NCBI GenBank assembly: GCA_902793435.1
Contig: CADBDF010000002.1
Location: 1 to 64,000, forward strand
Direction of reading: 5' to 3'
Source: an uncultured Pseudomonadota bacterium
Lineage (GTDB): Bacteria; Pseudomonadota; Alphaproteobacteria; Rs-D84
Length of the DNA: 64,000 bases
In this document: positions 17,307 to 56,094 of the stretch, in pieces
Numbering within the stretch: the first letter of the stretch is position 1
Layout of the letters: the number at the start of each line of letters is the position of its first letter
The notes under the pieces: generated by a model
Told to the model about the DNA's origin: nothing
The model's input: only the letters and a program-made list of their open reading frames with translations
Database searches by the model: none
Position numbers and translations under genes: made by a program

Positions 17307-17849
17307 ATGTCGTTGGAAAATTTAAACTCTGGTAAAAATCCGCCCCAGCAGATGAACGCTATTATAGAAGTCCCAGAAAATGGTTATGTGAAATACGAAA
17401 TTAATAAAGAATATGGCCTGTTACGTGTGGATAGAGTTTTGCATACACCCATGGCATATCCGGCAAACTATGGTTATTTTCCTGGAACGTTGGGTGATGA
17501 TGGTGATCCGTTGGATTGTGTTGTGGTGTGTAATGCGCCACTGCGTCCGGGCGTGTTGATAGAGATTCGACCGATTGGTGCGTTGGTTATGGAAGACCAG
17601 GCCGGTGGTGACGAGAAAATTATTTGTGTCCCATTGGCGAATATCGACCCATATTATTCAGATGTTAAAACATTGTCTGATTTACCGGAAATATTGAAAT
17701 CAAAAATCAAATATTTCTTTAAGCATTATAAAGATTTACAACCAAATGCGTGGTCAAATGTTAAAAATTGGGTCGATAAAGACGATGCAGAACGTATTAT
17801 TATGGAATCTATTGACCGTTATTGGACGCATAAACGTAATGATGCGTAA
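17307..17849 (+). CDS. ppa: Inorganic pyrophosphatase
   Basis: Cytoplasmic family I enzyme hydrolysing pyrophosphate to phosphate. 180 aa with the conserved blocks PANYGYFPGTLGDDGDPLDC (catalytic Asp cluster), EDQAGGDEKI and FFKHYKDLQP...KNWVDKDDA. Lys and Tyr residues in KYEINKEYGLLRVDR fit the active site. It precedes efp by 69 bases with no terminator, so the two may be co-transcribed. Confidence 0.96.
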   Translation: MSLENLNSGKNPPQQMNAIIEVPENGYVKYEINKEYGLLRVDRVLHTPMAYPANYGYFPGTLGDDGDPLDCVVVCNAPLRPGVLIEIRPIGALVMEDQAGGDEKIICVPLANIDPYYSDVKTLSDLPEILKSKIKYFFKHYKDLQPNAWSNVKNWVDKDDAERIIMESIDRYWTHKRNDA

Positions 17850-32867: not shown

Positions 32868-33701
32868 ATGAAAAAAACAACAGAAAAATTTACAGATAAA
32901 AAAGTTGCACTGTTTGCAGGCGCGTTGTCTTTGCCATTTTTGGCGCGTGATGCGATGCGCAAGCGCGGGTGGGACGTTTATGTTATTGGGTTAAAGAATT
33001 TTTATGACGAGGCATTGAATCCAGATTTGGTAATTCGATTAGGTGGTGGCGGTCGTGCCGCGCGCGAGTGTAAAAAACGCGGTATTCATAAATTAGTGTT
33101 TGTTGGCGCATTGGGACATGTAAATTTGGCTGATATCAGGCCAGATTTTTGGTCGATTGGCGTATTGCTTAGTGTTTTTAAACATCAACGGGGGTATGAT
33201 TCTATGGCGGTTGCATTTAACAAGGCATTGGAAAAACGTGGATATGAAATTGTTGCGGCACAAGATATTGCGCCAGATTTGACTTTTGAAAAACCTGGGG
33301 TTTGGACACGTGTAAAACCGACATCGGCGGACACAAAAAATATTGAACGTGCGGTTGATGTGTCACACACAATTGGGGTTGCCGATATTGGCGCATCTGT
33401 GGTTGTTGATAAACAGGTTATCGCGGTAGAGGCCGCCGAAGGAACCGCGCGTATGTTGGAACGTGTTGTTGAAATGCGTAAAAATAAACGCGGGCGCGCA
33501 TCCGGGGTTTTTGCGAAAATGACAAAACCCGGGCAAGATTTAAGGATTGATATCCCGGCGATTGGTGTTGATACGGTTAATGCGGTTGCGGCGGCGAAAT
33601 TGCGTGGCATTATTGTTAATGCAAAAACTTGCTTTGTTATTGATAAAGACGCGGTGATTGCGGCGGCAAACCGGGCAAAAATTTTTATCAAGGCAGTTTA
33701 A
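32868..33701 (+). CDS. lpxI: UDP-2,3-diacylglucosamine pyrophosphatase LpxI
   Basis: 277 aa, DUF1009 family. It hydrolyses UDP-2,3-diacylglucosamine to lipid X in lipid A synthesis, replacing LpxH in alphaproteobacteria. Motifs seen are ALFAGALSLPFLARDAM, FVGALGHVNLADIRPDF, then IGVADIGASVVVDKQVIAVEAAEGT, and PAIGVDTV near the end. ATG 32868 follows AGGAT; a TTG three bases earlier is unlikely. No other lpx genes are adjacent. Confidence 0.92.
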   Translation: MKKTTEKFTDKKVALFAGALSLPFLARDAMRKRGWDVYVIGLKNFYDEALNPDLVIRLGGGGRAARECKKRGIHKLVFVGALGHVNLADIRPDFWSIGVLLSVFKHQRGYDSMAVAFNKALEKRGYEIVAAQDIAPDLTFEKPGVWTRVKPTSADTKNIERAVDVSHTIGVADIGASVVVDKQVIAVEAAEGTARMLERVVEMRKNKRGRASGVFAKMTKPGQDLRIDIPAIGVDTVNAVAAAKLRGIIVNAKTCFVIDKDAVIAAANRAKIFIKAV

Positions 33702-33734
33702 TCAAATTTCAAAGTTTATTGATGTATTATTATC

Positions 33735-34334
33735 ACAATTACCCCGTCACTTCACCTGCGGTTACGTGCCACCCCTTCTTTCATAAAGAAGGGGACGTCC
33801 GTAATTGCACATTGCGCCCAGATAATATGATATTGATTTTTAATTTTTGTTTGATAATTTTTCATATATGAAATTACCAAAGACTAAATCATTGTCTGGA
33901 TTATCAAAAGCCTTGCGTAACAATTCGACCAAGGCGGAATGTATTTTATGGCGATATTGAAAAAATAAAAATGCGTTTGGTTATCAATTTCATCGTCAAA
34001 AAGTTATTGGTAAATATATCGTTGATTTTTATTGTCCTGGATTGTCTTTGGTTATCGAAGTTGATGGAAATTCGCACGATAATAAATATGAATATGACGC
34101 ACAACGTGATAAATATTTAAAAAGCCTGGGCTTAAATATATTAAGGTTAGATAACAGTGATATTATATTTGGTGTAGATAAAGCCCTGTATGCGATTGAA
34201 ACATATATGCAACATTTAATGCGTGAAAATAATAAACCGGATAAAAGTGTATAATTATGTTGTGTCGGTTGCACTTGCGTGTCCCCTTCTTTATGAAAGA
34301 AGGGGTGGATGCGAAGCAGACGGGGTAATTGTGA
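33735..34334. mobile_element. Inverted-repeat element carrying a broken DUF559 gene
   Basis: The outermost 15 bases, CACAATTACCCCGTC (33735-33749), recur exactly inverted at 34320-34334. Further in, both ends carry CCACCCCTTCTTTCATAAAG plus AAGGGGAC, which is itself a palindrome CCCCTTCTTT-CAT-AAAGAAGGGG. The two ends enclose only the DUF559 open frame. No target-site duplication is evident. This fits a small non-autonomous or minimal mobile unit. Confidence 0.6.
33868..34254 (+). pseudogene. DUF559 endonuclease-like gene interrupted by an in-frame UGA
   Basis: Reading from ATG 33868 gives 128 codons in one frame with a single TGA at codon 31 (33958-33960). Around it the frame fits DUF559 proteins: LRNNSTKAECILWRY, stop, KNKNAFGYQFHRQKVIGKYI, then VDFYCPGLSLVIEVDGNSHD, YDAQRDKYLKSLGLNILRL. 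DUF559 proteins resemble very-short-patch-repair nucleases; the D...E-x-D pattern is kept. At the stop, relatives usually have Leu or Ile (TTA to TGA would suffice), and UGA is a normal stop in this genome, so a nonsense-mutated pseudogene is likely. A fragment from the ATG at 34042 (70 aa) remains open. Confidence 0.8.
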
Positions 34335-34365
34335 AACATTAATTATTTCATAATTACTTTGGTTA

Positions 34366-41184: not shown

Positions 41185-41517
41185 ATGATTGGAAAAAAAT
41201 GGAAAGAATTTCGTACGTCTGTGGCTAATATGCGTGCGGTGCGTGCGGAATTTAATGAACAAGAAAAAAATTTCGGTTGTTTGGAAAATAAAAATTTAGT
41301 TTGTGCGGGCGATCCTTGTGATAATAATGGTGTCGAAATTCCGCGTTGCAGAAAATATGAATTAAGTGTTCATTGTCCGGAAACACAATGTCCTTATCGT
41401 GAATGGAATACGAAACATTACAATACATATCTAAAATTGTGGAATTCAGGAATGGATTGTTTCGAGGCTTTTTTGAATTTGTTTGTTATAAAACGCAGGT
41501 CGTCAAACAGTAAATAA
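41185..41517 (+). CDS. Small Cys-rich protein, unknown
   Basis: 110 aa, no recognised family and no signal peptide. Residues about 32-70 contain seven Cys (GCLENKNLVCAGDPCDNNG, PRCRKYELSVHCPETQCPYREW), which in a cytoplasmic protein suggests a zinc site. The start is basic (MIGKKWKEFRTSVANMRAVR), and the end is RRSSNSK. It lies 11 bases after lepA and 16 before the integrase-like gene, so it is in the lepA transcript. Confidence 0.65.
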   Translation: MIGKKWKEFRTSVANMRAVRAEFNEQEKNFGCLENKNLVCAGDPCDNNGVEIPRCRKYELSVHCPETQCPYREWNTKHYNTYLKLWNSGMDCFEAFLNLFVIKRRSSNSK

Positions 41518-54874: not shown

Positions 54875-55495
54875 ATGCAGTTAGATATTATAAATTTCGA
54901 TGGTAAATCTGTTGGCAAAATTGATTTGGCTGACAGTGTATTCGGTATTTCTCCACGTGCGGATATTTTGCATCGTGTTGTCACATGGCAACGTGCAAAT
55001 GCACGCGCAGGCACACATGCAGTGAAAACAGTGTCTGATGTCGCGGGAAGTGGCCGTAAAGCATTCAAACAGAAAAAGACAGGTAATGCACGTCAAGGTG
55101 AAAAATATAATGTTCATATGCGTGGCGGTGGTGTGGTTCATGGACCAGTTGTTCGCGACCACAGCATTGATTTGCCAAAGAAAATTCGTTCTTTGGGCTT
55201 GAAAATGGCTTTGTCTTCAAAATTACAAGATGGTAATTTAATCATCATTGATTCTGAAAAAATGGGTGCAGCCAAAACAAACACAATTGCAAAACAATTG
55301 AAAAAATTGGATTTGAATTCTGTTTTGTTTGTGGGTGCAACAGAATTGGATGCGAACTTCAAAAAATCTGTGGCGAACATTGCAAATGTTGATGCGTTGC
55401 CAACGATTGGTTTGAATGTTTTGGATATCTTGAAACATGATAAATTGGTTTTGACAGCCGATGCCGTCAAATCTGTCGAAGCACGTTTGGGGTAA
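54875..55495 (+). CDS. rplD: 50S ribosomal protein L4
   Basis: 206 aa. Contains AGTHAVKTVSDVAGSGRKAFKQKKTGNARQG (in part), the loop reaching the exit tunnel, and a globular domain ending VKSVEARLG. ATG 54875 is preferred over the in-frame GTG at 54866 because AAGGTGG then fits as ribosome-binding site. In some bacteria L4 represses its own operon; no such site can be shown here. Confidence 0.95.
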   Translation: MQLDIINFDGKSVGKIDLADSVFGISPRADILHRVVTWQRANARAGTHAVKTVSDVAGSGRKAFKQKKTGNARQGEKYNVHMRGGGVVHGPVVRDHSIDLPKKIRSLGLKMALSSKLQDGNLIIIDSEKMGAAKTNTIAKQLKKLDLNSVLFVGATELDANFKKSVANIANVDALPTIGLNVLDILKHDKLVLTADAVKSVEARLG

Positions 55496-55498
55496 AAA

Positions 55499-55744
55499 AT
55501 GAGTTTGGGAATTTTTCAAGGTAAACGTATAGGACCGAATACATTTGAATATTTTGTTTCTTATGGTTTGTCGGGCAAAAATAATCCAAGTTTTTTTACA
55601 CCGAATTTAATCAAAGCAAATCTTAGGGATAATCTGGGAGATGCTAAGTTTGATTTTGAAAAGCATTATCGTAGAAAGTTAGAACAGGGAAATTCTTTCA
55701 AAATTACGGCAGTGTTTAGAGAATCAAAGGTAAATATAAAATAA
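55499..55744 (+). CDS. Unknown 81-aa protein inserted in the S10 operon
   Basis: ATG lies 3 bases after the rplD stop and the stop is 14 bases before the rplW start, so it is translated within the ribosomal transcript. The sequence (MSLGIFQGKRIGPNTFEYFV, YGLSGKNNPSFFTPNLIKAN, LRDNLGDAKFDFEKHYRRK, GNSFKITAVFRESKVNIK) has no signal peptide, a mixed charge and a pattern of short strands and a helix. I recognise no family, and the S10 operon normally has no gene here. Its codon use appears less biased than that of the ribosomal genes. Confidence 0.7.
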   Translation: MSLGIFQGKRIGPNTFEYFVSYGLSGKNNPSFFTPNLIKANLRDNLGDAKFDFEKHYRRKLEQGNSFKITAVFRESKVNIK

Positions 55745-55758
55745 AAATGAGAGCTAAA

Positions 55759-56094
55759 ATGGCAGAAAAGAAAGTTGAAAATAAAATTGTTGCAGGTGCA
55801 GGTATTTATGATATACTGGTTCGTCCAGTCATTTCAGAGAAATCTGCAAAATTGTCTGAAAGCAATGGCGTTGTGTTCGAAGTTGCAAAAGATGCAACCA
55901 AGGCGGACGTTGCACGTGCGATGCAGGTGATTTATGGTGTTAAACCAACCAAGGTTAATATCGTTATCACCAAAGGTAAGGTTAAATCTTTCCGTGGTCG
56001 CAGTTCAGGCAAACAACGTGACGTTAAAAAAGCGTATGTGTCATTACCAGCCGATGCTAAATTGGATATGGCTGTGGCGGCACAGAGTAAATAA
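55759..56094 (+). CDS. rplW: 50S ribosomal protein L23
   Basis: 111 aa. Exit-tunnel protein and docking site for SRP and trigger factor. Signatures: ILVRPVISEKSAKLSE, VFEVAKDATKADVARAMQVIYGVKP (in part), and GKVKSFRGRSSGKQRDVKKA. ATG 55759 is chosen (GAGAG upstream); an ATG at 55747 is in frame. Confidence 0.95.
   Translation: MAEKKVENKIVAGAGIYDILVRPVISEKSAKLSESNGVVFEVAKDATKADVARAMQVIYGVKPTKVNIVITKGKVKSFRGRSSGKQRDVKKAYVSLPADAKLDMAVAAQSK

Follow-up and report, generated by a model that had tools for sequence, protein, structure and literature searches.

An extra gene of 81 codons lies between rplD and rplW in the window – the whole stretch of 64,000 nucleotides of DNA that was analysed – and was acquired as part of a cassette of ca. 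285 nt, which replaced the rplD–rplW spacer after the split from the nearest relative. Comparison with other genomes indicates that this junction (the slot) holds exchangeable accessory genes rather than a fixed ribosomal protein of the lineage. The S10 operon of the window otherwise has its usual gene order. The features concerned are:

54875..55495, + strand: rplD (L4), the upstream neighbour; its stop TAA (55493..55495) ends 3 nt before the start of the slot gene.
55499..55744, + strand: the slot gene, an ORF of 81 aa encoding a predicted basic protein (pI 10) with the predicted element order β-β-α-β-(α)-β.
55747..56094, + strand: rplW (L23), the downstream neighbour; first in-frame ATG at 55747, conserved start at 55759 (MAEKK).
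55474..55758, + strand: the tract of ca. 285 nt replaced relative to the nearest relative, comprising the last codons of rplD, the slot gene and the rplW leader; borders approximate.

The 81-aa slot gene is a real gene. The slot, taken as the gap between rplD and rplW, has 263 nt in the window, and an ORF as long as the slot gene appeared in one of 2000 dinucleotide shuffles of it; the longest ORF on the antisense strand has only 19 codons. The in-frame codon score of the gene (0.142) is higher than that of every out-of-frame piece of the window genes (maximum −0.054) but is within the lowest 10% of in-frame pieces, so the gene is coding, although it departs from what is typical of highly expressed genes. 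It is AT-rich with atypical codons, and single-copy in the genome of 898 kb. Sub-megabase gut Alphaproteobacteria of the order Rs-D84 have been described (PMC12306168), and the organism of the window is probably among them. The shuffles, the codon score and homologues in the same slot (below) all bear out the first-pass annotation in its claim of an extra gene at this place.

The slot gene starts 3 nt after the rplD stop. Its own stop is followed after 2 nt by the rplW ATG at 55747, which gives an extra N-terminal MRAK, and after 14 nt by the ATG at 55759 that is conserved in relatives. The spacing of 3 and 14 bases claimed earlier holds with the conserved start, and the tight placement, within a normally invariant gene order, is suited to translational coupling, as had been supposed. 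No clear Shine-Dalgarno sequence was found upstream of the slot gene (a GGGG 6 nt upstream is weak at best), while an AAGGA-type site precedes rpsJ, rplB, rpsC and rplP; the AAGGAT-type rplW leader of close relatives is gone in the window. Because the slot gene has no AAGGA-type site, we infer that ribosomes finishing rplD would re-initiate 3 nt downstream on the slot gene and, after its stop, would do so again 2 or 14 nt later on rplW. Such re-initiation would spare the slot gene a promoter or a strong ribosome-binding site, and partial dependence of rplW on its translation may help to retain it. The first-pass annotation expected coupling to make the product as abundant as L4; the weak initiation signal and the poorer codon fit argue for a product that is probably less abundant.

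112 rplD–rplW junctions were gathered from the same genus. The gap is 11–43 nt in 109 of these; the other three are a spacer of 79 nt in G080, which is repeat-like and without an ORF, one of 229 nt in G139, and the 263 nt of the window. The nearest relative, G028, has L4 and L23 proteins 98% identical to those of the window and flanking DNA 96–98% identical on both sides, with a gap of 16 nt. In all seven closest clade members in a tree of L4 and L23, the gap is 12–16 nt and contains an AAGGAT-type leader, and the end of rplD reads GCCAGATTGGC; both features are lacking in the window. Compared with G028 in bins of 30 nt, four consecutive rplD bins match at 30/30 positions, the last rplD bin at 24/30, and the first rplW bin once more at 30/30; within a contig of 140 kb synteny is unbroken on both sides of the slot. 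Since the drop in identity is confined to this tract, ca. 285 nt, beginning in the final codons of rplD and reaching the rplW start, were replaced, and since the entire spacer and the end of rplD differ from the nearest relative in this way, the slot gene was recently gained. The cassette may have come by recombination across the conserved ends of rplD and rplW, and its donor would have been an unsampled relative that had the gene at this position already. Gain is preferred to an ancestral gene lost many times – the seven closest relatives would each have to lose the gene, and all the losses would have to yield the same type of leader.

As one possibility, the first-pass annotation had named a novel small ribosomal protein of the lineage, to be given up if close relatives lacked the gene. 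The gene is missing in G028 and at the same-genus junctions other than a decayed copy in G139, so the proposal fails for a lineage-wide component; with 109 of the 112 junctions only 11–43 nt long, there is no sign of the lineage-wide conservation expected of a ribosomal protein. At one locus of the genus (L105, G170) a 20-nt gap precedes rplW, with a leader, ACGAGAGCAAAATG, that is closer to those of the window and G139 than to the norm of the genus. It may be the remnant of a slot gene since lost.

In G139, the 229-nt gap encodes, adjoining rplW, a peptide like the C-terminus of the slot-gene product (score 56; 1000 shuffles reached at most 41). An open frame covers the 36 codons immediately preceding rplW; upstream of them every frame is interrupted, and the copy is therefore considered decayed. 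G139 is a distant congener in the tree, and its own neighbours there, G025 and G138, have ordinary gaps. When a profile of the window and G139 C-termini was searched against 201 genomes of the order, the best new match (E 8.6e-5) was in another genus, in G202, where it sits in the rplD–rplW slot within an intact ORF of 81 aa. The window and G202 proteins align over most of their length with 29% identity (z 6.0, 0 of 1000 shuffles), and a profile of these two with G139 left out recovers the G139 slot (E 0.001). Ten of the 23 identical residues have different codons, and the third position is the most variable. The G202 sequence is MAG record WRKW01000004, isolate Th196P3bin127, a name that we take to mean a termite gut sample. 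By above-chance similarity and a common position, the window, G202 and G139 copies form one family; the slot of another genus holds an intact homologue, and that of a distant congener a decayed one.

There are 18 readable rplD–rplW slots in other genera of the family, and in seven a same-strand ORF fills most of the gap. These ORFs have 81 aa (G202), 86 aa (G201), 106 aa (G187), 107 aa (G203), 51 aa (G190), 84 aa (G204) and 115 aa (G198). The slots without an ORF comprise two gaps of 59 and 81 nt and nine of at most 24 nt. In other families of the order, a slot ORF was found in one of 11 (G048). Except in G201, slot ORFs begin within 13 nt of the rplD stop; those of G187 and G048 overrun into rplW, and five were confirmed in named sequence records. 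In one genus (g29), three species have three different slot ORFs and one species has none. The slot ORFs are mostly unrelated in sequence, with a clear relation for window–G202–G139 and a suggestive one among the proteins of G201, G203 and G204; profile comparison among the slot-ORF groups found no link, and no profile common to all of them emerged. All slot proteins are basic (pI 9.2–10), as are 30% of the non-ribosomal proteins of the window.

Gaps of more than 100 nt are commonest, among the S10-operon junctions, at rplD–rplW (16 of 79 loci, from 11 genomes, some read twice), followed by rplW–rplB (11 of 79), rplC–rplD (2 of 77), rplB–rpsS (2 of 72) and rpsJ–rplC (0 of 37). A few relatives have orphan small ORFs at rplW–rplB or rplC–rplD (L171 in G190, L185 in G048, L165, L169 and L186), so the orphan-ORF habit extends beyond the rplD–rplW slot. 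At one locus (L143, G122) rplW matches as two overlapping pieces (query 4–37 and 26–110), which may indicate a frameshift, either in rplW itself or in its assembly.

None of the libraries searched contains the slot protein family. No family was found in Pfam, PHROGs or PADLOC for the slot proteins, nor in NCBIfam for the window protein, and no relative in collections of phage, plasmid, IMG/VR and GTDB r220 contigs; PADLOC, PHROGs and the phage and viral collections gave no match to any known protein of phages or of defence against them. Sampling 385 genomes across the class revealed no further family member. PDB sequences gave only matches with E above 0.05, and Rfam only a sub-threshold match. 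Weak matches of the window protein in single genomes were dismissed as chance: those that were read overlap known genes antisense or in another frame, or fall within proteins of no relation, for example a TatC-like one. A G060 match of the window–G202 profile, which has an internal stop and lies in an rsmG–parA region, was likewise taken as chance.

Accessory-gene hotspots have conserved flanking genes and exchanged variable content. The slot shares both properties, but it holds single tiny genes inside an essential co-translated operon, and no integrase or repeats were seen. This operon cluster is known to receive insertions (PMC8046335). They too are extra genes within an otherwise conserved cluster, but they are mostly known metabolic genes located mostly between operons, whereas the present slot is inside S10 and is repeatedly filled by small orphan ORFs, placed for coupling and varying in content. 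Literature searches yielded no description of a gene at the rplD–rplW junction. The gene order of the S10 operon is treated as near fixed, and here one junction in a family repeatedly gains and changes small orphan genes; the recent gain in the window species is a natural experiment in how a core operon tolerates and retains an insert.

Structures were predicted with AlphaFold2 for two groups of slot proteins. The model for window and G202 (pLDDT 75, pTM 0.62) has the order β-β-α-β-(α)-β and that for G203, G204 and G201 (pLDDT 67, pTM 0.58) the order β-β-α-β-β. Foldseek found nothing significant in the PDB for either. The top VIA matches of both models were eS24 chains, at Z below 8 and with eS24 represented by many redundant PDB chains: Z 7.3, rmsd 2.7 and 69 aligned residues for the first model, Z 7.8, rmsd 3.7 and 78 aligned for the second, levels of Z also reached by unrelated models. 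Values below 8 can reflect simply a common arrangement, and the likeness to eS24 is taken as a lead rather than a result because unrelated models reach such Z and the eS24 entries are redundant. S24e, L23 and L15e belong to one SCOPe superfamily (PMC12612674). Like eS24 (S24e) and L23 in size and in being basic, the slot protein also has their element order in its predicted structure, finds its best VIA matches among eS24 chains, and is encoded next to rplW. It differs in having no sequence match to them – a Pfam scan found no family at E up to 10, S24e included, and comparison with a profile of 100-odd L23 sequences gave a probability of 0.1% – and in structural scores at background level. 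The gene is also sporadic and fast-evolving, unlike ribosomal proteins. A viral fold search gave a best E of 0.039, not significant. The predicted fold is compatible with the putative ribosome-associated role that the first-pass annotation suggested.

The reading preferred here, tentatively, is that the slot gene encodes a basic accessory protein that may bind RNA or the ribosome, is translated by coupling and is exchanged in the S10-operon slot. Its weakest step is the function assigned to the small basic β-β-α-β-β product, which would be a dispensable accessory factor that evolves fast and binds to RNA or to ribosomes. Ribosomal factors are usually conserved, whereas this gene is sporadic, decayed in G139 and exchanged; there is no Pfam or L23 sequence relation, and a basic pI is common in the window. 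Almost as likely as a product acting on RNA or the ribosome is hitchhiking cargo, with the slot serving as a safe and well-expressed site where small accessory genes unrelated to ribosomes can land; these could plausibly be, for example, phage resistance or immunity proteins swapped between species under conflict. Sporadic presence, recent gain, decay in G139 and, within a single genus, slot proteins unrelated to one another would all be consistent with cargo, as would AT-rich DNA with atypical codons and the further orphan ORFs at rplW–rplB and rplC–rplD in some relatives. The searches of PADLOC, PHROGs, phage, plasmid and IMG/VR collections and of viral folds speak against it, and the same element order in both modelled proteins is unexpected of random cargo. 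The slot offers a set of small proteins that can be tested directly for a function on the ribosome or for being protected cargo.

A bolder form of the accessory-protein reading, which we consider unlikely, makes all slot proteins members of a single family that evolves very fast, has an S24e/L23-like fold, is translated together with L4 and L23, acts on the ribosome and is exchanged from species to species. If true, it would mean an exchangeable ribosome accessory protein of gut alphaproteobacteria, passed on inside the S10 operon.

Two further readings are improbable, and to a like degree. The protein could be functionless, a translational relay or selfish spacer whose ORF is kept open because a leaderless rplW needs coupled translation; the lost AAGGAT-type leader, the ATG at 55747 only 2 nt past the stop and the 36 open codons of the otherwise broken G139 copy would fit this, but the residues kept between window and G202 despite codon changes (10 of the 23 identical ones) and the common predicted fold would not. 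Local origin, as a tandem copy of rplW that has diverged or as a gene that arose from the spacer, would draw on the adjoining rplW and on the superfamily that L23 shares with the best structural match, eS24; the L23 profile comparison (0.1%) leaves duplication unsupported, and a homologue in the same slot of another genus argues against birth in the window species. A spurious ORF or assembly artefact, which might be suspected from unique DNA with no homologue in close relatives in what is probably a metagenome assembly, is very improbable given the chance and coding tests, the same-slot homologues and the synteny continuing on both sides in the 140-kb contig.

Other differences between the window and G028 were observed. 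A cysteine-bearing ORF of 110 aa at 41185..41517 (+), beginning MIGKKWKEFRTSV, is missing at the syntenic G028 junction (a clean difference of 341 nt) and is a second small gene with a clean presence/absence border. A gene of 180 aa at 17307..17849 (+), which reads like a putative inorganic pyrophosphatase gene, has no counterpart at the corresponding position of G028 (a difference of 677 nt). A broken ORF at 33700..34360, in a stretch absent from G028, has a C-terminal part that reads like a putative DUF559-like one.
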